Assembly (NCBI GenBank): GCA_017536545.1
Contig: JAFXHF010000005.1
Coordinates: forward strand, 1-64,000
Direction: 5' to 3'
Source: a bacterium
GTDB lineage: Bacteria > Cyanobacteriota > Vampirovibrionia > Gastranaerophilales > Gastranaerophilaceae
DNA: 64,000 nucleotides
Made by a program: the position numbers and the translations under genes
Notes under the pieces: generated by a model
The model's database searches: none
The model's input: the letters and a program-made list of their open reading frames with translations, nothing else
What the model was told of the DNA's origin: nothing
Part shown: one piece after another, positions 20,812 to 36,606 of the stretch
How positions within the stretch are numbered: position 1 is the stretch's first letter
Layout of the letters: the number at the start of each line of letters is the position of its first letter

Positions 20812-21867
20812 ATGGGCATGGCAGCATCTCAAGCAAGATGGATATCACTAGCAGCGAGAAAGACAAACGTTGAATACGAAGGACAACAAATTAACCAAGC
20901 AAGAACCGCCTTGGCTAACGAAAGTTCGCAACTTTGGAATGAACTTTACAATATGGAAGTTCCAACAGCTCCTAGTACAACTGAATTTACAAAAACTCAA
21001 TATACTTTTGAAAACGGAGATACAACCCAAACCATTTCCGAAATTCAACCTGCGGAGTACACAGATATTGATGGAATTAACTATAATTCATATGTAACTT
21101 ATTATACAAAAGTTTCAGAATACACAGGAATTAGAAACACAAATTCAAATCCACAAGTTCAATATATTGCAGCAACAGCAACAGACCCTGGATACTACAT
21201 GGTAGGAACAAGAAAACTATCTTGTTTAAACACCGTAGATAGAACTAACACAAGCGAAACAGGAGATTGGGGTACATATAGTGCTCAATTAGACCAAATT
21301 GCATTAGATTGGCCTAATACACAAGTTGCAAAAGATTGGACTAATTTTAAAACAAATGGTGATGTTACAGCCTTAGATAATATTTATTTCTGGTCTGATA
21401 ATAGTAGCCATGTAAATTTTGCATCTCAAAACGCAACAACAGGAGATTCATTAGAAGAATGTAGAGCTGATTCTTTATTGGCATTACACTCTTATTATGC
21501 AGATTATCAAACTGCAAACAAAGAATTATCTAAATATGGTATCGTAGAATACGACCCAAGCGGAAGAGCAACTTCTTTACAACTTGAAGGTTCGAGCGTT
21601 GTTTATGCCCTTGAAGCAACAAGTGTAACAGATGAAAATGCGTACAATGATGCTATGAATAATTACAATTATCAACAACAAGTTTACGAAAAAAAAGTTC
21701 AGGACATCAACGCAAAAACTGAAAAAATTCAAACAGAAGATAGAACATTAGAACTAAGATTAAAAGCTTTAGATACAGAACAGAATGCACTACAAACTGA
21801 GATGGATGCGGTTCACAAAATTATCTCTAAAAACATCGAAAGTACATTCAAAACATTCTCAAGCTAA
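20812..21867 (+). CDS. lineage-specific protein with MGMAASQAR N-terminus and coiled-coil ends
   Basis: 351 residues, strong AAGGAGAG site. Residues 1-50 are one amphipathic helix (MGMAASQARWISLAARKTN, INQARTALANESSQLWNEL). A Thr/Asn/Tyr-rich middle follows. The C-terminal 80 residues are a coiled coil (KVQDINAKTEKIQTEDRTL, LRLKALDTEQNALQTEMDAV) ending KNIESTFKTFSS. No Sec signal. Helices at both ends round a variable middle recall flagellar axial proteins, but I see no true flagellin, hook or rod motif. The C-terminus resembles that of the 110-residue protein at 23220. TATAAT at 20718-20723 may be its -10. Confidence 0.72.
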   Translation: MGMAASQARWISLAARKTNVEYEGQQINQARTALANESSQLWNELYNMEVPTAPSTTEFTKTQYTFENGDTTQTISEIQPAEYTDIDGINYNSYVTYYTKVSEYTGIRNTNSNPQVQYIAATATDPGYYMVGTRKLSCLNTVDRTNTSETGDWGTYSAQLDQIALDWPNTQVAKDWTNFKTNGDVTALDNIYFWSDNSSHVNFASQNATTGDSLEECRADSLLALHSYYADYQTANKELSKYGIVEYDPSGRATSLQLEGSSVVYALEATSVTDENAYNDAMNNYNYQQQVYEKKVQDINAKTEKIQTEDRTLELRLKALDTEQNALQTEMDAVHKIISKNIESTFKTFSS

Positions 21868-21894
21868 AATAATAATTAAGATAAAGAGGTTAAA

Positions 21895-22713
21895 ATGTCT
21901 TATAAAAATGACAGCGACTTAGTAATAGCAAATAGATTCGGTGACGCAAGCGGTAAAGCAAAAGCCCAAATGTGGGAAACTTACGACCGTTTAAGAGACT
22001 TGACTGTTTCAGGTAGCGGCACAGGTACTGGATTTGAGGCAGCTGGGGGTCTTTTATACAACCTAGCAAGCTTACTTGCACCATCATCATTTGCTACTAT
22101 TTTTGGTAGCTCAGAAACAATGAACATTGCTGGTACTTCTTACTATTCTAACGGTAATGCAGGTTCAGCATATGGTGTGGATTCACTATACAACTACTCA
22201 GGATTTCCAAGCGGAGCAGCTTCTATAAATTCAATCTACGGATTATCTACAGGTGGAGCTTCTTCAATATTAAATGGATGGGGCTCAGGTATGGCAGGAG
22301 TTCCAACAGGTTATGCATCAAGTGTAAGTGGACTTGCTGATATTACAAGTGCAGCAGCATATGGTATCGGTACAGGTTCAGGCTTAGGAAAGATTGCCTC
22401 AAATATTGTAATGCCATTTGCTAGTTGTATTTCAGGATTTGGTGGTATCCTAACAGCAATCTCCCCTTACCTTGGTGTTTACGGAGCAGGTACAACTGTC
22501 TTAGGTAACTTAATGCAAGGTACAACATCAGCAGCTCTTGCGGCTTACCAAAATATTACAGGTAACATCACAACAAATGCTGACACAATCCTTTCTACAA
22601 AAGTTAGAAACATTGAAACCGTTGTAAAAATGCTTGATACACAAGGCGATGTTGCTAAGAAAATGCTAAAAGAAGGTATTGATAGTAACAGTAAAGCTAT
22701 TCAAAATATGTAG
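21895..22713 (+). CDS. lineage-specific Gly/Ala/Ser/Tyr-rich protein
   Basis: 272 residues, 27 nt after the previous gene, with AAAGAGG upstream. Polar helical start (NRFGDASGKAKAQMWETYDRL), then about 180 residues rich in Gly, Ala, Ser and Tyr with hydrophobic stretches (LLYNLASLLAPSSFATIFG, MPFASCISGFGGILTAISP), and a polar helical end. No signal peptide, no known domain. Composition and position suggest it works with the neighbouring coiled-coil protein; membrane insertion is possible but not shown. A strong terminator follows. Confidence 0.68.
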   Translation: MSYKNDSDLVIANRFGDASGKAKAQMWETYDRLRDLTVSGSGTGTGFEAAGGLLYNLASLLAPSSFATIFGSSETMNIAGTSYYSNGNAGSAYGVDSLYNYSGFPSGAASINSIYGLSTGGASSILNGWGSGMAGVPTGYASSVSGLADITSAAAYGIGTGSGLGKIASNIVMPFASCISGFGGILTAISPYLGVYGAGTTVLGNLMQGTTSAALAAYQNITGNITTNADTILSTKVRNIETVVKMLDTQGDVAKKMLKEGIDSNSKAIQNM

Positions 22714-22738
22714 AATACTAATTAATAATTCACTATGT

Positions 22739-22785
22739 ATATGGATAATGTTAAAATAATTACATTATCCATATTATTTTATTAA
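22739..22785 (+). terminator. intrinsic terminator
   Basis: 13-bp stem ATATGGATAATGT/ACATTATCCATAT with a 10-nt AT-rich loop, then TATTTTATT. It ends the 20812-22713 pair. Confidence 0.75.
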
Positions 22786-22935
22786 AGTTTTAAAAAATAC
22801 AGCCGATAATATTAATGTATAAGTATGAATATTAGACCAAATATTAAGAAATATTACATTATATTCTTAAAAACTATCAATTAAAATACATGTAATGTTT
22901 TTAAATATATGTAGGTCTAAAGTGTAAGGATCATT

Positions 22936-23208
22936 ATGTTTCGAGAAACTCTAGAACTATACATAAAAAGAATCATGGACTTTCTGATATACACAAAGAA
23001 CTATTTTATCAGAAAGAACCCTCTACAATCGGTAACAGAATCTATTGTGGACGGGATAAAAGATTTCTTAACGGTAAAAAAGAAACTAAGAATGGCTCAA
23101 TACAGGCTAAATTATCACAGACACCAACTGAACAAAATGGAACAACTGATAGCCGAAAATAGCCAACACAGTTTCTTAAAAGGTTCCAATCTGGACCAAA
23201 AAAGGTAA
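22936..23208 (+). CDS. small basic coiled-coil protein
   Basis: 90 residues with a TAAGGA site. A basic amphipathic N-terminus (ETLELYIKRIMDFLIYTKN) is followed by a helical segment rich in Lys, Gln and His (KKKLRMAQYRLNYHRHQLNK). No family recognised. It is 11 nt ahead of the next small coiled-coil gene, so the two form a unit downstream of the 20812 pair. Confidence 0.6.
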   Translation: MFRETLELYIKRIMDFLIYTKNYFIRKNPLQSVTESIVDGIKDFLTVKKKLRMAQYRLNYHRHQLNKMEQLIAENSQHSFLKGSNLDQKR

Positions 23209-23219
23209 AGGCGGAAAAT

Positions 23220-23552
23220 ATGGGTTTACTAATCGGCATTATCAGAATGAGACAACTGAAACTTATGCAATCCAATTGCGAGTGGAAGTTACAATTAATT
23301 GCACAAGCAGTTAGTACAGCCCAAAATTCAGCAAATAACTTGCTACAAGTTTCAACTGACTACGAGTCAGACAGTGCAGTTGCAAAGAAATTACAACAAC
23401 GACAATATAAATTAAAAGCCTTAGAAGAGAAATTGAATGCACAAAAAGCTGCATTAGAGATTCAGCTAAAAGAAATTAACGCTGAAATGGAATCATGCAG
23501 AGGCATGATTGACGCTCACATCAAAGATGTATTCTCATATAGAGTAGGCTAA
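23220..23552 (+). CDS. small coiled-coil protein related to the 20812 product
   Basis: 110 residues, AAAGGCGG site. N-terminal helix (MGLLIGIIRMRQLKLMQ), a short Ser/Asn linker, then a heptad coiled coil (KLKALEEKLNAQKAALEIQ) ending MESCRGMIDAHIKDVFSYRVG. The last 45 residues align by eye with the end of the 351-residue protein at 20812 (LRLKALDTEQNALQTEMDAV...KNIESTFKTF), so it looks like a short paralogue lacking the variable middle. Confidence 0.65.
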   Translation: MGLLIGIIRMRQLKLMQSNCEWKLQLIAQAVSTAQNSANNLLQVSTDYESDSAVAKKLQQRQYKLKALEEKLNAQKAALEIQLKEINAEMESCRGMIDAHIKDVFSYRVG

Positions 23553-23556
23553 AAAA

Positions 23557-24204
23557 CTATCTAGCTTGAATGAATAGACTAATAATGTCATTCATCGCTG
23601 CGGCTTGTTTTTGATAACTTTGAGCCTTAGCTTCTAGAATACTGATTTGCTTACGGTATTCAGCAACATTACTTTGACATTCAACAGAATTAGCAGTTAA
23701 AGCTTCTTGAACTTGTTTTGCTTCTTGAAGAACACTACCCATTGAAATACCAAGAGCTTCCATTGTTTGTTTAATAATCAAAGCACCTGTTTGCTTAGAC
23801 ACACCTGTTGGAAGTTTTGCAATAAGTTGTCTTAAAACAGCAACATTTGATGGGTAATCAAAATCATCTTGAGCTACAAAAGCATTTGCACCAAGATTTT
23901 GAACAATACTTTGTTGGAATGCAGCATCGACAAAAGTTTGAGGCTGAGTTGCAGCTTGGAATTGCAATTGAGATTGAATTTTCATCTGCATATCATTTGG
24001 AGCTTGAAAATCGTCAACATATTCTACCTGTTCAACAACAGGTTCCTCATCAACTACCACTTCATTTTCAAATACTGGCTCTTCAATAATTTCTGGAGCG
24101 TTATCATTTACAAAAACTTCACCATCAGCGTGCTCTGCTGATTGCATTTTTAACGCTTCAACAATCTTTTTACCAACACCATCATTCAAATCGTTTATAG
24201 CCAT
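23557..24204 (-). CDS. lineage-specific protein, acidic linker plus C-terminal coiled coil
   Basis: I chose the ATG at 24204 (215 residues) because GAAGAGGAT precedes it; an ATG at 24234 lacks a site. Helical start (INDLNDGVGKKIVEALKMQ), then an acidic Val/Glu/Pro linker (residues 30-65), a Gln/Phe/Ala-rich stretch, a compact helical part (NVAVLRQLIAKLPTGVSKQ) and a final coiled coil (YRKQISILEAKAQSYQKQ). No family recognised. It faces the coiled-coil gene at 23220 tail to tail with only 4 nt between stops. Confidence 0.7.
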   Translation of the reverse strand: MAINDLNDGVGKKIVEALKMQSAEHADGEVFVNDNAPEIIEEPVFENEVVVDEEPVVEQVEYVDDFQAPNDMQMKIQSQLQFQAATQPQTFVDAAFQQSIVQNLGANAFVAQDDFDYPSNVAVLRQLIAKLPTGVSKQTGALIIKQTMEALGISMGSVLQEAKQVQEALTANSVECQSNVAEYRKQISILEAKAQSYQKQAAAMNDIISLFIQAR

Positions 24205-24360: not shown

Positions 24361-25296
24361 ATGGAAAATATTGAGATAACAAACTTTAATGAGCTACCAT
24401 TTGGAGAAAATGTAAACCAATCCGCATCAATTGCTCCAATTGAAAATGGTTTAGAATATGAAATTTTAAGTGATAACGATGCTTTAGAATATATTGACTA
24501 CCTAAATTCTACAAAAGCAATCGAAATCTTGGCTGAATTTTTTGACGTAAATGCGGTTGCAATAGCTAAAGAAAACAAACTTTGCTCTGTTGCTCTAGGA
24601 AATTCAGTTGAGACCGCATTTGAAAAAATAGTTGATTGCGATCCATTGGCAGTAATCGGATCTACTGTTGGTTTTTCAAAAGAATTAACACTTGAAGTAG
24701 CAAAACAACTAAATGCAATGAAAATTCGCAACGTTATTGCAACAAAGTTCTCAAAAGAGGCTCTTGAATATTTACTAAATAATAGCGAAATCAATGTTAT
24801 TCAAATAAAAAGTCCACTACAAGAAGTTCTAGGCTTTAACGCTAAAGATATTAGGGTAACTCCATTTGGCTACCTTATCCAAAACCAAAATGATAGCAAA
24901 CTTACAAAATCTACATTCAAAGTTGCAGGAAAAACAAAACCTACTCAACAACAGGCTGAAGATGCAATCTTTGCTTGGAAAATCTCTAAATATTCACAAA
25001 GCAGATGTGCAGTCATTGCCAAGGATTTATCAACAAAAGCTATCGTTCAAGGAAGAACAAATCTTGCAGAAGCTGTTGAATCAGCGATGGATATAGCTTG
25101 TGAAAATTCAAAAGAAGCAGTCTTAGCTGTTGACGGCGTTATCGAAAACGAAGAAGTTATTAACGCTGCAATTCAAGGTAGAATTGGCTTGATTATCGAA
25201 GCTAATGACGGCGTTAATTCTGAAAAAATCACAAAACTTGCTGACAAATACGAAATTTCTCTAATCAAAACTGGATTAAGAAATAATAAATACTAA
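24361..25296 (+). CDS. PurH-like protein: AICAR transformylase fold, degenerate active site
   Basis: 311 residues from the ATG at 24361 (GAGGG site). It lacks the IMP cyclohydrolase half of PurH. The rest follows the AICAR transformylase region by eye: AVAIAKENKLCSVALG (66-80) corresponds to the family's KHxNPCGVAxG, DPLAVIGSTVGF to DPxSAFGGIVAL, YLIQNQND to LxQxxD, KPTQQQAEDAIFAWKISKY (193-211) to the PTxxExxDLxFAWxVxKx segment, and the end LIKTGLRNNKY to MxFTGxRHFxH. The catalytic Lys-His pair reads Lys70-Glu71 and the final His residues are missing, so formyl transfer is unlikely. Role unknown. It shares a direction and close spacing with the dCMP deaminase gene. Confidence 0.75.
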   Translation: MENIEITNFNELPFGENVNQSASIAPIENGLEYEILSDNDALEYIDYLNSTKAIEILAEFFDVNAVAIAKENKLCSVALGNSVETAFEKIVDCDPLAVIGSTVGFSKELTLEVAKQLNAMKIRNVIATKFSKEALEYLLNNSEINVIQIKSPLQEVLGFNAKDIRVTPFGYLIQNQNDSKLTKSTFKVAGKTKPTQQQAEDAIFAWKISKYSQSRCAVIAKDLSTKAIVQGRTNLAEAVESAMDIACENSKEAVLAVDGVIENEEVINAAIQGRIGLIIEANDGVNSEKITKLADKYEISLIKTGLRNNKY

Positions 25297-29156: not shown

Positions 29157-29498
29157 ATGATGAATAGTAATTTCCCAAATTATGGTTTAGCTTCAAGAAT
29201 ACAACATACCAAATTTGATTCACAATTTGGTAAAATGCCTAGCATGCGTATGGAAAGAATTGAATCTCCTGATGGGGCAAACTTCAAACAAGTTTTCTCT
29301 GGTTTGGTGGAAAATTTAAACGATCAAATGGAAGCTCCTGACAACTTATTAAAAGATGTTATGTCAGGAAATCAAAATGTTGATATTCACGATGTAATGA
29401 CAGCTATGTCAAAATCAGAAATTACAGTGAACCTAGCTACTCAAATGGTGGGAAAAGTAATCAACGCATACGATAGAATTTCACAAATTTCAGTATAA
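29157..29498 (+). CDS. fliE: flagellar basal-body protein FliE
   Basis: 113 residues. The C-terminal half is typical FliE: ANFKQVFSGLVENLNDQ, NVDIHDVMTAMSKSEITVNLA (split family signature) and VGKVINAYDRISQISV. FliE links the MS-ring to the rod and is specific to flagella rather than injectisomes. A second ATG follows the first directly. It leads an operon with fliF, a fliG-like gene, fliH and flhA. Confidence 0.93.
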   Translation: MMNSNFPNYGLASRIQHTKFDSQFGKMPSMRMERIESPDGANFKQVFSGLVENLNDQMEAPDNLLKDVMSGNQNVDIHDVMTAMSKSEITVNLATQMVGKVINAYDRISQISV

Positions 29499-29537: not shown

Positions 29538-31205
29538 ATGGATTTTAGTAAAATTGCAGAAAATAAACCTTTATTATTTGGGATAATCGGCGGGGTTGTC
29601 CTTATACTTGTTATTGTGATTATGAGTGTTGCTATTGGTTCAGGTGGCAAAGATAAAGTGGAAAATATTGGTGCGGAACCTCTCAAATCAAATGTTGACT
29701 TGTTAACAACAGACAACTTAGGGAAAGCATTAGAAATCCAAGCATTACTTGCAAAACAAGGTATTGTAGTTGGACGTGCTCCAGATGGTACGAAATCAAA
29801 ACTATACTTAGATGCTAAAAATTGTTCATCTCTAACTAAAAAATGTACAATCACTGATAGAGATAACGCAATTATTGCTATTGTTCAAAGTGGTTTAGTT
29901 GACCAAAACGTTGGTCTTGAAATCTTTGATAAGGGTGACTTTACTTCAACTAAAGAAGATAAAAGGATTCGTCTTGCACGTGCTATGAACGGTGAATTGG
30001 CTCGTTTAATTAAACAAATCAAACCAATTCAAAATGCTACAGTATTTATCTCTATACCTGAGCAAACAAACTACTTTGAAGACAAAAAACCAAAAACAGC
30101 AACAGTACAGTTAGTACTAGCAACAGGTGAAAAACTTGATCAAAACAAAGTTAAAGCTATTACAAACTTGCTTATCGGTAGTGTTACAGGTTTAACTGCG
30201 GATAACATCTCAATTTCAGATACGAACGGTAATGTTTACCACAGTATTATGGATGCGGAAGATGAAATGCTTCAAAAATTAGAAGAAAATGATAAATACA
30301 TGCAACAAAAAATCTCAAAACAATTAGACCGCCTAGTTGGTCCAGGAAACTATGTTGCAACTGTAAGTACTTTCTTAAGACAAGCTCCAGTTGAAAGATT
30401 TAAAATAGAATATGATCCAACTAAAAAAGCTTCTGTTTCTGAACAATCATTTAGAGAAGGCTTAGGAGATCAGACTAGAGATCAATCACAAGGTATCAAC
30501 GCAGTAAGTACATACTTACCAAACGGTTTACCAAGAGGTTCAGCTGATTCTAGACAAGATAGAAATTACTCTAGACAAGCAACAGAAACTCAATACGGAG
30601 TTACAAAAACTCAAACAAACGAATATATCAAACCTGGTGTAATCGAAGAAATTTCTATTGCAATCACTATTGATAAAAACAACTTACCAACAGATACAAC
30701 TTTGGAAGAATTAAAAGAACTTATTGCAAGAGCAGCTAGCCCTAAAGTTTCAGCTAGCGATGTTTCTATCGCATTTACAAGTTCAACAGATCCATACTTA
30801 ACACCAGAAAGACAACAAAACTTACCTAAAGTTGATGAAACAGGTAACCCTTGGTGGCTTGCAATATTATTATCTGGCTTAGGTTTGATTATCATATTCA
30901 AAGCTATCTCAGATAAAGTTAGACGTATAAAAGAAGAAAACGAAATGGAAGTTGAAAGCTTACGTCAACGTGCAATGGAACAAGAAAGACAATTGAACGA
31001 TATCAATTCTCGTGCAAGTCAATTAACTCAACGTCAATCAGAACTTGCTCAAGACTTAATAAACCAACAACAAAGAGCTGCTATTCCTCAATTTGATGAA
31101 AACTTATTATTAGATTCAATTGATAGTATTTCTAGTGAAATCAATGAAGAAAATGCAGACAAAATTAAGAGTTGGATAGAAGAAGGAACATCTCAGGAAG
31201 GGTAA
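29538..31205 (+). CDS. fliF: flagellar MS-ring protein FliF
   Basis: 555 residues, close to the flagellar norm and far longer than injectisome SctJ. TM1 is at about residues 13-31; ring-building motifs follow (LEIQALLAKQGI, DNAIIAIVQSGL, RLARAMNGELARLIKQI, ATVFISIPEQ). TM2 (WWLAILLSGLGLIIIFKAI) is near residue 440, then a cytoplasmic coiled coil, and the last 15 residues (DKIKSWIEEG) resemble the FliG-binding tail of FliF. The N-terminal secretin-like region includes an unusual short Cys/Lys insert (LDAKNCSSLTKKC). Confidence 0.92.
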   Translation: MDFSKIAENKPLLFGIIGGVVLILVIVIMSVAIGSGGKDKVENIGAEPLKSNVDLLTTDNLGKALEIQALLAKQGIVVGRAPDGTKSKLYLDAKNCSSLTKKCTITDRDNAIIAIVQSGLVDQNVGLEIFDKGDFTSTKEDKRIRLARAMNGELARLIKQIKPIQNATVFISIPEQTNYFEDKKPKTATVQLVLATGEKLDQNKVKAITNLLIGSVTGLTADNISISDTNGNVYHSIMDAEDEMLQKLEENDKYMQQKISKQLDRLVGPGNYVATVSTFLRQAPVERFKIEYDPTKKASVSEQSFREGLGDQTRDQSQGINAVSTYLPNGLPRGSADSRQDRNYSRQATETQYGVTKTQTNEYIKPGVIEEISIAITIDKNNLPTDTTLEELKELIARAASPKVSASDVSIAFTSSTDPYLTPERQQNLPKVDETGNPWWLAILLSGLGLIIIFKAISDKVRRIKEENEMEVESLRQRAMEQERQLNDINSRASQLTQRQSELAQDLINQQQRAAIPQFDENLLLDSIDSISSEINEENADKIKSWIEEGTSQEG

Positions 31206-31209
31206 ATAA

Positions 31210-32214
31210 ATGGCTACTAAAGATTTTGATTACGAAAATTTTGCCCAGAACCTTGCAGCACAAGCTCAGGAATTAGTTCCCCAAGATTTTAACGATGCTC
31301 AAAAACAATACGTCATAAATACATTGGGCAATTTTGCTATGCTTTCAGGAAAAGCACTAGCAGAAGACCCTAATCTAAACTTTAACGCAGACCAATCAAT
31401 TACTATCACTCAAATTATTGCAGAATGGTCGTTCCACAAATCAGTAGACCTTATTCGTTCAGGTATCCCTCAACAATATTGGGATCCTGTTATGCAAAAA
31501 ATTGCATATACTATTTTTGAAATCGCTAAACAAACATTCTCTCAAGGTTTACCACACGATAAAATTTTAGAACTAGTAGAACATCACGTAAAGAAAAGCT
31601 ATCTAGAAGCGATTACTGAGCTAAAAAACAAAGGTGCGATCGATGAAGGACTAATGGAATTTGCAGCATCTCAGTCAAACATGGATAAAATGGCTCAAGA
31701 AATGCAACAGCCAGCTAATGCTCAAGCAGGAGTACCAATGGATAATGGTGAACTTCCTCCATTACCAACAGCACCAAATATCCCAACTGAAATGCCAAAA
31801 GTTGATTCAAAAGTTCTAAAATTAGCAACAGTAGCGATGTTGTTCAAAAAATTAAACCAAGATAAAGTTCAATCAATTTTAAATAAATTTGATCCGCAAG
31901 ATGCTGAGGCAGTTATCAGATACATGAGAATGCCTGACTTAATTGATAGAGTAGGGGGAGCAAATGCACTAAGAGCATTACAAGAAATAAAAACAACCCT
32001 ACCTAGAAATACTCAATTAACACCAAATAAAGTTATTTTAAAATTGAAAAAATTTGGTTCTAAATATTCAAGTAAAGATTTAGATACAATACTAATTAGA
32101 GAACGCATGGGAGTTAAACGCCTTGTGTTTAATGCGATTGAGGGCAAATACTATGACAAAATGCCACCACGTGTAGCAAGTATTGTTGCCTCACATCTAA
32201 CAGATAGTGTATAA
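31210..32214 (+). CDS. highly divergent FliG-position protein
   Basis: 334 residues, GGAAGGG site, 4 nt after fliF. Its position between fliF and fliH is that of fliG, and residues about 200-250 (LATVAMLFKKLNQDKVQSIL, FDPQDAEAVIRYM, MPDL) resemble the armadillo repeats of FliG or MotE. However, the N-terminal 160 residues do not look like the FliF-binding domain, a Pro-rich linker splits the protein (PPLPTAPNIPTEMPK), I find no EHPQ motif, and the C-terminal end (PPRVASIVASHLTDSV) lacks an evident charged torque helix. It may be a FliG replacement or a structural C-ring substitute. Confidence 0.6.
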   Translation: MATKDFDYENFAQNLAAQAQELVPQDFNDAQKQYVINTLGNFAMLSGKALAEDPNLNFNADQSITITQIIAEWSFHKSVDLIRSGIPQQYWDPVMQKIAYTIFEIAKQTFSQGLPHDKILELVEHHVKKSYLEAITELKNKGAIDEGLMEFAASQSNMDKMAQEMQQPANAQAGVPMDNGELPPLPTAPNIPTEMPKVDSKVLKLATVAMLFKKLNQDKVQSILNKFDPQDAEAVIRYMRMPDLIDRVGGANALRALQEIKTTLPRNTQLTPNKVILKLKKFGSKYSSKDLDTILIRERMGVKRLVFNAIEGKYYDKMPPRVASIVASHLTDSV

Positions 32215-32226
32215 TACTTATAAATC

Positions 32227-32937
32227 ATGATTATAAAAAAGAAGAAAAAAACAGACCAAGGGATAGAGGAGCAATTAGTTCCAAATACACAAGAGGGAGT
32301 CGAATCATTAGACAATGAAAATGTCGAAAAAGAGATCGACTTATTTGACTTGGATAATATTGATTTCAAACAACGTCAAGAACGTCGTAGGGGGGATAGA
32401 CGACGAGGCTTTAGACGTATTGATGACAGAAACCTTATCTCAAGAGCAAGAGAAGAAGCCGCAGCTATTAAAGAAGCTGCAGCTAAAGAAGGTTACGAGG
32501 CTGGCCTAGATGCAGCTAAAGACGATATTGAAAGAGTCAAAGAAGGTTTGAATGCTTTCTTCACCGCAAAACAAGAGGTTTATGATAGTATCGCTCCTGA
32601 TATTTTAGAAATCAGTCTTGAAATTGCGACAAAAATTATTAAAAAAGAAACAGTTGAGAACCCTGAAATCATCCTAGATAACATCAAAGATATTATGAAA
32701 GGGTTATCAAAAGAAGAAGCAAAAATTACTCTAAAAGTAAACCCATCACAAGTTGCAATGCTAAAACAAGAAATTCCTGAAGTTACAAGTTCTTTAGGAA
32801 TTGAAGCAAAAATATTCATTGTAGCAGAAGAAACAATAATGGAAGGTGGTTGTATCGTAACCACAACAAACGGAGTAATTGATGCAACAATAGAATCACA
32901 ATTGGCAATAATTAGTGAAGCGTTGAAGGGTATATAG
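32227..32937 (+). CDS. fliH: FliH/SctL-like export ATPase regulator
   Basis: 236 residues. Basic, acidic and Arg-rich N-terminal segments (KKKKKTD, RQERRRGDRRRGFRR) are followed by an Ala/Glu coiled coil (REEAAAIKEAAAKEGYEAG, the GxxxG-type FliH region) and the conserved globular end (EISLEIATKIIKKE, ITLKVNPSQV, GGCIVTTTNGVIDATIESQL). It would hold FliI at the export gate; fliI itself is not in the window. There is no clear ribosome site; the ATG is 12 nt past the upstream stop. Confidence 0.88.
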   Translation: MIIKKKKKTDQGIEEQLVPNTQEGVESLDNENVEKEIDLFDLDNIDFKQRQERRRGDRRRGFRRIDDRNLISRAREEAAAIKEAAAKEGYEAGLDAAKDDIERVKEGLNAFFTAKQEVYDSIAPDILEISLEIATKIIKKETVENPEIILDNIKDIMKGLSKEEAKITLKVNPSQVAMLKQEIPEVTSSLGIEAKIFIVAEETIMEGGCIVTTTNGVIDATIESQLAIISEALKGI

Positions 32938-32943
32938 TAAAAA

Positions 32944-35052
32944 ATGGCAGCTCCGGAAGGTAATAATAATCAAATAAGCGAATTTTTCATGGCAGTCTTT
33001 GTACTGTTCCTTTTGATTATCTTGCTTTGCGAACTCCCAAACTGGGTAATCAACGTTTGTATCTGTTTGAATATTACGCTAGGTGTTGTTCTTTTGATGT
33101 TTGCACTATATATTCAAAAAACACTTGAATTATCATCATTCCCATCAATTATTCTGGTTGGTACAATGTTTAGACTTTGTTTATCTATTGCATCTACCCG
33201 TTTGATTTTGGCAAAGGGGGAAGCTGGGGAGGTAATCCACGCTTTCGGGGAATTCGTAACAGGTGGTAATATGATTGTAGGGGGTGTAATCTTCCTTATT
33301 ATCACAGTTGTACAGTTCATGGTAATCACTAAAGGTGCTGAACGTATCGCCGAAGTTTCTGCACGTTTCGCATTAGACGCGATGCCTGGTAAACAAATGA
33401 CCATTGACGCAGACTTTAACGCAGGGTTAATTTCACCAGAAGAAGCTACAAAAAAACGTGAAGACTTATCCAGAGAATCAAACTTAATGGGTTCTATGGA
33501 TGGTGCGATGAAGTTTGTAAAAGGGGATACCATTGCTGGTATCATTATCGTTTTAATTAACATTATCGGAGGTTTGTGTATTGGTTGTATGATGAACCAA
33601 ATGCCAATTGCCGATGCTGTTGCAAAATATACAGTTTTAACAATTGGTGATGGTTTGGCTTCTCAAGTTCCATCACTATTGATGTCAATTGCTGCTGGTG
33701 TATTTATGACACGTGCTTCAGCTGCTAGCCCATCATTAGGTTCTGATGTAACATTCCAAATCACAAGTAAACCTCACGCATTATTTTATGCTGCAGGTTT
33801 CTTAGTGTTACTTGCAATAAGTGGTAAAACTCCATTTTGGGATGGTACAGGTTTACCACCTTTACCGTTTATCATTTTTGCTATTGGATTATTTGTAGCT
33901 GGTTTCCAAGTTCTTATCAATGCGGATGTACAATCTCAATTAGGACAATTGGAAAACGTACGTCAAAACATGCAAGACCTTGTTAACCCTAACAGAATGT
34001 ATGAACGTTTAGGTGTTGATATTTTGAGTTTACAAGTAGGTTCTAACTTGCTTGTAATTGCTGACCCCGATCAAGAAGGTCAATTATTAGCTAAAATCGC
34101 AGCTCTTCGTCAAAGAGTTACAGATGAACTTGGTTATATTTTGCCAAACATTCGTATTATGGACTCATCAGCACTTGATGCTAATGAATATATGATTTCA
34201 ATCCGTGGTAATACTGTTGCCACAGGTTACGTTTATCCTGGGAAATTTATGGTAATTGCTGACCAATGGGATTCTATGAAAAAAGAAGTGCCAGAAGATG
34301 CCATTATCGGTATTGACCCGACATATCAAACTCAAGCATACTGGATTAACCAAGATGATGCACGCTCTGCTCGTTTAGTTACTGCAGTTGATGCAACAGA
34401 CGTTATCGTTACACACTTACAAGAATGTGTAAGAAAACACGTTGATGAAGTTATGACAAAAACTGACGTTCTTAAACTTATGGAACTTGTACGCTCTCAA
34501 GACCCAACTCTTGTTAACGACCTTGTCCCAACAATTATATCTACATCAGACTTACGTAAAATTTTTGTTAACTTGATTAGAGAAAAAGTTTCTATTAAAG
34601 ATATTATTTTCGTATTTGAAAGACTTTGTGATTACGCAAGATTTTCAAAAGAACCAGATATTTTATCTGAACGTCTAAGAGCAGCTTTAGGTCGTCAAAT
34701 ATGCTTATCTAATGTTCAAGACGATAGAGTTCTTTATGCCTTAACTCTTTCTCCTGAGTGGGAAAAAATCTTAGACGACTCTTGTCAAAGAACTGAGCTT
34801 GGTACAATGTTCTTGTTAAATCCTGTTCAAGTTCAAGAACTTATTGAAACAACTGCAACAACATTATTGAGAGCCCACCAAACTTGTGGTCGTCAACCAG
34901 TTGTTTTATGCTCTCCAAGAATTAGATTGCCATTGTATCAACTACTTGAAAGACACATCCCAACTGTTGTTGTAATTTCATATTCTGAACTTATTACAGA
35001 TATTAAAGTTGAAGCAATCGACACAATTGGTGATGCATATATAACAGACTAA
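32944..35052 (+). CDS. flhA: flagellar export gate protein FlhA
   Basis: 702 residues. N-terminal membrane half with about eight helices and the FHIPEP hallmarks (FRLCLSIASTRLIL, FVTGGNMIVGG, ITKGAERIAEVSARFALDA, MPGKQMTIDADFNAGLI), then the cytoplasmic ring half (SNLLVIADPDQEGQ, IRIMDSSALDANEY, LRAALGRQICLS). FlhA is the export-gate subunit that binds substrates and chaperones. Whether it serves a flagellum or another export machine cannot be settled from this protein alone, but its FliE/FliF neighbours favour a flagellar origin. Confidence 0.94.
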   Translation: MAAPEGNNNQISEFFMAVFVLFLLIILLCELPNWVINVCICLNITLGVVLLMFALYIQKTLELSSFPSIILVGTMFRLCLSIASTRLILAKGEAGEVIHAFGEFVTGGNMIVGGVIFLIITVVQFMVITKGAERIAEVSARFALDAMPGKQMTIDADFNAGLISPEEATKKREDLSRESNLMGSMDGAMKFVKGDTIAGIIIVLINIIGGLCIGCMMNQMPIADAVAKYTVLTIGDGLASQVPSLLMSIAAGVFMTRASAASPSLGSDVTFQITSKPHALFYAAGFLVLLAISGKTPFWDGTGLPPLPFIIFAIGLFVAGFQVLINADVQSQLGQLENVRQNMQDLVNPNRMYERLGVDILSLQVGSNLLVIADPDQEGQLLAKIAALRQRVTDELGYILPNIRIMDSSALDANEYMISIRGNTVATGYVYPGKFMVIADQWDSMKKEVPEDAIIGIDPTYQTQAYWINQDDARSARLVTAVDATDVIVTHLQECVRKHVDEVMTKTDVLKLMELVRSQDPTLVNDLVPTIISTSDLRKIFVNLIREKVSIKDIIFVFERLCDYARFSKEPDILSERLRAALGRQICLSNVQDDRVLYALTLSPEWEKILDDSCQRTELGTMFLLNPVQVQELIETTATTLLRAHQTCGRQPVVLCSPRIRLPLYQLLERHIPTVVVISYSELITDIKVEAIDTIGDAYITD

Positions 35053-35337: not shown

Positions 35338-36606
35338 CTAGAGAGTTTTAATATAATCAACGACTTCTTTTAATGAATAAATATTATCCTGAACAAAGAA
35401 GTTTTTGTTTGTTTGCTCTTTAACATATGACAAGGTTTTACCGTCTAAAAAATCCTCGCTATATGGTCTTAGCATAATTGACGGAATAATAACTTCATCA
35501 CAATCAACATCTTTAACTGTTCTAATCAAATCTTCTGTTGTAATAAGCCCTGCAACAGTAATATCTTGCCCCCAATATTCAGATTTAACAGGGCAAACCT
35601 CTACAGTTAGATTTTTGATTTTATTTAGTTTCACACAAACTTCTTCTAACATATCTTTTGCAGCGTAAGAACAGCCAAAAACAAGTTTGTAAGGCTTAGA
35701 AATAGACTTTGGCAACTTATGACAATAAAAATCATCTAAAGTAATTCTAAGAGCCCCTACGCCATCATCTAACTGACAAAAATTTTCATAATATTTTGCA
35801 GATGGAATGGGTTTTTCTGCAAGCAAGAAAAACTCATCTGAGCAACAAACTCTTTTATATTTAGATGCAATTTCAATAGTTTCTGTAGCACATTTTTTAT
35901 CAACCCTACGCAACTCTCCGTCAGGTCTGAATTGAGTTAACCCGACAGGAACAATAGCAACTGATAAAACTGTATTTTTCAATTTTGCTAAATCTGATAA
36001 AGTTCTATCTAATTCAGCACCATCATTTATTCCTGGGCATAAAACAATTTGTGCGTGGAACGGAATTTTATTTTTTCTAAACCACTGAAGATTATCCAAA
36101 GCTTTGCCTGCATTAGGATTTCTAAGCATTTTTACACGCAATTCTGGATTTGTTGTGTGTACAGACACATAAAACGGACCTAAATGCATACGTTTTATTC
36201 TATCTCTATCCTCATCTTTCAGATTGGTCAGAGTAATATAAGTCCCTTGCAAATAAGACAAACGATAATCATCATCTTTTATGTATAAAGTATCTCTCAA
36301 ACCTTTTGGTTGCTGGTCTACAAAACAAAAAATACAATGATTTAAACAAGGTTTAATTTTGTCAAAAACTGCACTTTCAAAAACTATACCTAAATCATCA
36401 TCATAATCTTTTTCAATTTCAATTTCTTCAATTTCGCCATTAGATTTTTTAACTTCAATCGTAATTAATTCAGATTTCATATAGAAGTTATAATCAATCA
36501 TATCAAGCATTTGACAACCATCAACAGAAAGAATTTCATCTCCCTTTTGGATTTCTAACTCTTCAGCTATTGAACCTTCTAAAACACTATTAACGATTGC
36601 CGGCAT
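35338..36606 (-). CDS. PDZ/DUF512 radical-SAM protein (TIGR03279-like)
   Basis: 422 residues. An N-terminal PDZ-like domain (VNSVLEGSIAEELEIQKGDE, ILSVDGCQMLD) is followed by a radical-SAM cysteine set CLNHCIFCFVDQQPKG (CX3CX2C), LRDTLYIKDDDYRLSYLQG and a C-terminal DUF512 part (CCSDEFFLLAE, YWGQDITVAGLITTED). This architecture defines a family annotated as cyanobacterial-specific FeS oxidoreductase and also found in clostridia; the function is unknown to me. Its start overlaps the PadR gene's end by 17 nt, so the two are co-transcribed. Confidence 0.92.
   Translation of the reverse strand: MPAIVNSVLEGSIAEELEIQKGDEILSVDGCQMLDMIDYNFYMKSELITIEVKKSNGEIEEIEIEKDYDDDLGIVFESAVFDKIKPCLNHCIFCFVDQQPKGLRDTLYIKDDDYRLSYLQGTYITLTNLKDEDRDRIKRMHLGPFYVSVHTTNPELRVKMLRNPNAGKALDNLQWFRKNKIPFHAQIVLCPGINDGAELDRTLSDLAKLKNTVLSVAIVPVGLTQFRPDGELRRVDKKCATETIEIASKYKRVCCSDEFFLLAEKPIPSAKYYENFCQLDDGVGALRITLDDFYCHKLPKSISKPYKLVFGCSYAAKDMLEEVCVKLNKIKNLTVEVCPVKSEYWGQDITVAGLITTEDLIRTVKDVDCDEVIIPSIMLRPYSEDFLDGKTLSYVKEQTNKNFFVQDNIYSLKEVVDYIKTL

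Follow-up and report, generated by a model that had tools for sequence, protein, structure and literature searches.

A coiled-coil hairpin protein family that accompanies a second flagellum-type FlhA in Gastranaerophilales: candidate substrates of a proposed separate type III export machine

Introduction

The described systems closest to the one considered here are the flagellum and the non-flagellar type III secretion system (T3SS), or injectisome, the definition of which excludes FliE, FlgB and FlgC (Abby and Rocha, 2012; PMC3459982). Flagellin-less basal bodies are known from Buchnera, where the basal body and export genes are kept and a role other than motility is proposed (PMC8109811). 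For gut Melainabacteria, Di Rienzi et al. (2013; PMC3787301) reported MEL.A1 as lacking filament, cap, junction and L/P rings, which was read as genome reduction, and listed ACD20 with two flhA genes, without comment. Here we analyze five adjacent genes, P1 to P5 (positions 20812–24204), together with a nearby block of flagellar-type export genes ending in flhA2. Both lie in a window of 64,000 nucleotides (positions 1 to 64,000 of contig JAFXHF010000005.1, assembly GCA_017536545.1) from a metagenome-assembled genome of Gastranaerophilales type that is 99% complete (hereafter the source genome; C1, C2, etc., are its contigs). We consider it fairly probable that P1- and P4-type proteins are outer axial export substrates of a second type III machine, with P2 as a tip or translocator-like partner. 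In the open-access literature searched, no type III system and neither the P1 nor the P2 family was found described for these bacteria.

With the flagellum, the source genome shares FliE, FliF, FliH, FlhA, FliO/P/Q/R, FliM/N-like, FlgB, FlgC, and FlgE/F/G-like parts, and the candidate axial proteins likewise have conserved terminal helices and a variable middle. It differs in having no flagellin and a distinct FlhA lineage; moreover, the P1 family has no detectable flagellin homology, and flagellated relatives possess a separate flagellar FlhA. With the injectisome it shares a flagellum-derived export machine apparently without a flagellin filament, small helical hairpins of needle-subunit size, and a hydrophobic, possibly translocator-like partner. 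However, FliE (in the window) and flgB/flgC (on contig C7, and beside fliE-flhA2 in relatives) are retained, and under the definition given by Abby and Rocha (2012) this places the system outside the non-flagellar T3SSs. In addition, FlhA2 is nearer to FlhA than to SctV (691 versus 581 bits), and no needle, tip, or translocator family was matched in Pfam. Whereas Buchnera has a reduced flagellum, the system here appears to be a distinct, ancient paralogous one with its own substrate-like family, and it coexists with flagella in relatives.

Results

The five open reading frames reported in a first-pass annotation of the window were all present as described, coordinates included. P1 (20812–21867, forward strand) encodes a protein of 351 amino acids (aa) belonging to a new multi-copy family, and P2 (21895–22713, forward) a single-copy protein of 272 aa rich in Gly, Ala, Ser, and Tyr. 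They are followed by P3 (22936–23208, forward; 90 aa, basic), P4 (23220–23552, forward; 110 aa), a hairpin-only member of the P1 family without the middle domain, and the convergent P5 (23557–24204, reverse), of 215 aa counted from the ATG, which is acidic and has a coiled-coil end. Homologues of P1 to P4 occur as genes in many genomes at ~40–99% identity; these are therefore not chance reading frames. Searches of Pfam, NCBIfam, PHROGs, and PDB sequences with P1 to P5 returned coiled-coil noise only, and the N-termini, judged by eye, were without a Sec-like signal, in agreement with the annotation. Its description of the cluster as lineage-specific did not hold: in surveys of 146 Gastranaerophilales genomes for the order and 240 genomes for the class, P1 and P2 were also found in several families outside the order. 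Within the family, P3 and P4 were detected in four genera; P5 was found in two genera only, and its membership in the system is unproven. P2 adjoins a P1-family gene in the neighborhoods compared, P3 comes after P2 in at least four genera, and the order P1-P2-P3-P4 is kept in several.

All 146 genomes of the order encode FlhA; flagellin is present in 54 and absent from 92. The FlhA bit scores fell into two classes, one of ~860–890 in genomes with flagellin and one of ~715–736, to which the FlhA of the window belongs. This protein, FlhA2 (32944–35052, forward; PF00771, E = 9e-215), is assigned from the tree and profile as the export gate of a second flagellum-type system. The window type is not restricted to flagellin-less genomes: those with flagellin typically have both classes, those without it the lower-scoring class only. 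Identity to the window protein is 57–76% for FlhA2 and 35–40% for flagellar FlhA. In the FlhA tree the two are set apart by long, fully supported branches and FlhA2 tracks the organism families (some long branches were flagged, none within FlhA2). It was found in the order families f2, f3, f4, f6, and f7 and the class families f9, f14, and f15. Judged from these sequence comparisons, FlhA2 is a distinct type, vertically inherited across several families, and the export block of the window belongs to a second, ancient system, which other genera have alongside true flagella.

These data bear on the genome-reduction view, in which the locus would be a decaying flagellum and the neighboring genes unrelated survivors (Di Rienzi et al., 2013; Soo et al., 2014). 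Both studies report gut genomes with a subset of flagellar genes, and fliF and flhA of the window score under the flagellar cut-offs. Nevertheless, almost every genome has an intact FlhA2, which is inherited vertically as a separate clade spanning several families, and the coexistence of FlhA1 and FlhA2 in flagellated genera largely refutes decay. We regard it as quite improbable and conclude that the fliE-F-(G)-H-flhA block is not a decaying flagellum.

In the class survey (240 genomes), the P1 profile matched 164, P2 was found in 158 (nearly always once), and FlhA of any type in 186. P2 was limited to families with FlhA2, and P1 nearly so. In the class sample, FlhA2 (57–76% identity) was present in the families carrying P1 and P2 (f1, f6, f9, f14, f15), while f10 to f12 had FlhAs only 42–48% or ~35% identical to FlhA2 and no P2, and f8 and f13 had neither FlhA nor P2. 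In the 33 genomes tested from outside the order, P2 and FlhA2 matched in 11 of 11 versus 0 of 22; these genomes represent few independent lineages, and the Fisher value for the comparison overstates their independence. In the phylogenetic profile against flhA suggested by the first-pass annotation, P1 and P2 track FlhA2, and no FlhA-less family carries them except for one marginal P1-profile match, in genome G161 (E = 1.6e-4, no P2). This match and a weak one in G177 of f10 (1.4e-5, no P2) may be coiled-coil noise. The FlhA of f10, f11, and f12 (e.g., loci L154, L155, and L156) that is 42–48% identical to FlhA2 is a sister type; these families have at most one weak P1-profile match, and their FlhA could represent another variant, one with different substrates.

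In flagellin-less genomes, P2 and flhA2 were located on one contig in 37 of 70 cases and were at most 20 kb apart in 36 of these 37 (median 10.7 kb), while in flagellated genomes P2 lay within 20 kb of flhA2 in none of 24. As for the proposal that the proteins are substrates or tip proteins of the export block, it is partly supported, through the co-occurrence with FlhA2, but had missed that P1 is one of about nine paralogues in the source genome, that P4 is a P1 lacking the middle, and that the block represents a second, ancient system.

Relatives of P1 were detected in 145 of the 146 order genomes by single-sequence search, with 2 to 18 matches each, and copy number was higher in flagellin-less genera. 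The P1 profile identified eight members of 347–716 aa in the source genome, on contigs C3 (P1), C11, C27, C1, C14, C5, C18, and C23, in addition to a partial copy at the edge of C11 and P4; the genes are dispersed over the genome and form no array. Such copy numbers are minimum values. Two copies with identical N-terminal sequence, C11:1–336 and C27:36579–37667, lie at or near contig edges, which suggests a recent duplication that broke the assembly. All members of the source genome have MG-x-AASQAR or MG-x-SASQAR at the start and a conserved helix at the end; what is conserved is a helix of ~46 aa at the N-terminus and one of ~62 aa at the C-terminus, with a variable middle between them. Mean pairwise identity between paralogues was 48% in the first 46 residues, 29% in the middle, and 42% in the last 62 residues, and among orthologues 78, 18, and 66% of the columns, respectively, were invariant. 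The heptad periodicity of P1 exceeded that of all shuffles, and the family is poor in Cys (0.38% versus 1.3%).

The composition of these proteins is relevant to the possibility that P1, P3, P4, and P5 act in the cytosol as chaperones or as parts of a sorting platform, or that they are a coiled-coil system whose link to the export genes is incidental. In favor of it, P3 and P4 are of small size, P4 differs from the larger, acidic members of the P1 family in being slightly basic, and P5 is acidic with its coiled-coil end. Yet the large members, acidic, poor in Cys, and with middles that evolve fast, do not resemble chaperones, and the tight co-occurrence with FlhA2 also speaks against this explanation, which we consider improbable.

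Outside the order the P1 family takes a shorter form. In f9 and f15 the homologue has 109 aa, with the N- and C-terminal parts contiguous, and each genome has several copies, of which one lies immediately before P2; in f6 the homologue has ~180 aa. P4 orthologues align with the 109-aa form over the full length almost without gaps (25–33% identity), and in L084 the P4 orthologue was hit by the N-terminal (1e-8) as well as the C-terminal profile (8e-9) of the P1 family. The likeness of P4 to the C-terminus of P1 had been noticed in the first-pass annotation, which understated it by leaving out the N-terminal part. By these alignments, P4 is a P1-family hairpin lacking the middle. Because the two terminal parts are contiguous in the 109-aa hairpins and P4 aligns with them in full, the middle domain has the appearance of a segment inserted in a hairpin loop between two coiled-coil arms, and in plan, though without detectable sequence likeness, it may be compared to the outer domains of flagellin. 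We infer that the short form is ancestral. A 191-aa coiled-coil protein, both ends of which are P4-like by eye, is encoded in the source genome at L070:2806–3381 (C5), 6 kb from the 716-aa P1 paralogue.

The main rival to axial subunits is that the P1 family is exported by the FlhA2 machine without polymerizing, as effectors, released or injected, or as surface adhesins whose end helices are shared for export or chaperone binding. The many dispersed paralogues with very different middles do resemble a substrate repertoire, as does their greater number in flagellin-less genera. However, both ends of P1 are conserved, whereas effectors usually have an N-terminal signal only, and in other orders the family exists as the bare 109-aa hairpin, as would be expected of a structural subunit. 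Soluble effectors or adhesins therefore seem rather unlikely, although they are the alternative to be taken most seriously.

The helix-variable-helix plan attributed to P1 was borne out by a confident AlphaFold2 model built with 18 orthologues, with helices at residues 2–46 and 275–350 and a beta-rich middle at 60–273 (mean predicted local distance difference test, pLDDT, 86.5). The relative placement of these parts is uncertain because the predicted template modeling score was 0.41. As in the flagellar axial family, the predicted helices reach both chain ends with the variable domain between them. With P1 as query, VIA-align ranked flagellin and FliD chains first (Z 8.1–9.2 in the first 12 rows), and the leading Foldseek rows were mostly flagellar axial proteins at E 0.05 or worse; the fold likeness is only suggestive. 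No Pfam match to flagellin or rod proteins was found for P1 and P4, and no needle family appeared among the listed Pfam matches of 14 P1-family members.

Phage-tail proteins, or secreted hairpins of the WXG100/type VII kind, were also considered. P2 (E 0.002) and one paralogue (8e-4) gave weak matches to PHROG tail families, and hairpins of 100 residues recall WXG100. Scans of viral contigs with the P1 and P2 families, however, revealed no relatives, P1-family members had no WXG100 match in Pfam, and P2 is single-copy in nearly every genome of the carrying families. We regard both identifications as very improbable.

P2 has conserved N- and C-terminal segments and one hydrophobic stretch, at residues 171–189 (Kyte–Doolittle 1.5–1.8); it showed no match to a known translocator family, and its AlphaFold2 model was unusable (pLDDT 35). 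Its C-terminus matched the P1 C-terminal profile (4e-6), with at most 16% in hhalign; this may be a real relationship or coiled-coil bias and was not used as evidence.

The export block, all on the forward strand, starts with fliE (29157–29498; PF02049, 1.2e-15) and a divergent fliF (29538–31205; PF01514, 2e-33; TIGR00206, 105.7 bits, below the cut-off of 129.75). A fliG-like gene (31210–32214), assigned by conserved position and with a weak MgtE_N match (PF03448, 0.0015), and fliH (32227–32937; PF02108, 2e-24) precede flhA2. In close relatives, P3-P4-P5-AICARFT-comEB-fliE-fliF-fliG-fliH-flhA are collinear; the AICARFT/PurH-like gene (PF01808) lies at 24364–25293 in the window, between P5 and comEB as in relatives, and some relatives lack the amylase and acyltransferase genes that separate comEB from fliE here. 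A Radical SAM/DUF512/PDZ protein is encoded right after flhA2 on the opposite strand (35338–36606), where some relatives have fliI.

Elsewhere, the source genome contains fliO-P-Q-R with a FliM/N-like gene, flgB, flgC, and two FlgF/G-like genes on C7, and a third FlgE/F/G-like gene on C2 with FliK-like and FliJ-like neighbors, both below Pfam cut-offs. FliE, FliF, and FlgE/F/G were assigned by Pfam, FlgB and FlgC by sequence reading and position beside the FlgF/G genes; homologues of the latter two occupy the same place beside fliE-flhA2 in relatives. Flagellin (PF00669) gave no match in the source genome, and the control search was positive in four flagellated genomes. In several families the genes form a single cluster, flgF/G-flgF/G-flgB-flgC-(transglycosylase)-fliE-fliF-fliG-fliH-flhA2-fliI, with FliI identified in L078 and L159 and the transglycosylase in L089. 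The latter (L089:14061–14753) is an SLT lytic transglycosylase (PF01464, 3e-34) between flgC and fliE, and L077, L159, L160, and L165 have unnamed genes of similar size in its position. C7 also encodes a soluble 491-aa protein (L075:9787–11262) with the cytoplasmic domain of FlhA/SctV and no membrane part (PF00771 positions 309–652, 6.5e-47). Similar proteins occur in most order genomes. The partners of the 491-aa protein could be the substrates or chaperones that FlhA2 itself binds.

Discussion

We propose that the core components of a second type III export machine, flagellum-derived and of FlhA2 type, are encoded in the window, and that P1, its dispersed paralogues, and P4 would be late export substrates of this machine. 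They would be coiled-coil hairpin subunits, the two termini packing as in flagellar axial proteins, that assemble on the rod into an outer filament, needle, or tip. The variable domain in the hairpin loop, absent in other orders and up to ~600 aa here, would be displayed outside, and paralogues with different middles would vary the exposed surface. P2 would be the single-copy partner, most likely a cap/tip or translocator-like protein. The gene family, its architecture, the co-occurrence with FlhA2, the linkage in flagellin-less genera, and the presence of FlhA2 beside flagellar FlhA are observed; export, polymerization, surface display, and the role of P2 are what these observations suggest.

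Several results weigh against this proposal. P1-family genes are kept in G045 and G122, which are without P2 and intact FlhA2, and in G054, which has FlhA2 and no P2; these exceptions may be assembly gaps or recent losses. G019 has FlhA2 and gave no P1 match with the single-sequence query. The linkage of P2 and flhA2 is limited to flagellin-less genera, and FliI and FlhB were not located in the source genome. The fold matches of P1 are weak (Foldseek E 0.05 and Z 9.2 at best) and within the tool's warning range for long helices, and matches to viral predicted structures reached E 0.001, in no coherent family. Finally, profile-profile comparison (hhalign) of P1, P4, and P2 with flagellin, FliE, FlgB, FlgC, and FlgF/G detected no homology, the probabilities being under 1% for flagellins and rod proteins from the order and 94–100% for the controls.

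Taken further, the system of these non-photosynthetic relatives of Cyanobacteria could stand apart from both flagellum and injectisome as a type III machine of a third kind: an ancient paralogous, flagellum-like apparatus with an outer structure made from a new hairpin family, the loop surface domains of which were gained in gut lineages. We give this broader view an even chance. The partial flagella of gut Melainabacteria were earlier attributed to genome reduction; the evidence points instead to a second export machine conserved across the order, together with candidate exported proteins that are diversifying rapidly. The co-occurring P1 and P2 families make this reading testable. If it is true, these common and little-known gut bacteria would have a contact route to hosts or neighbors, and the relatives of Cyanobacteria would offer a natural case of the reuse of flagellar machinery.

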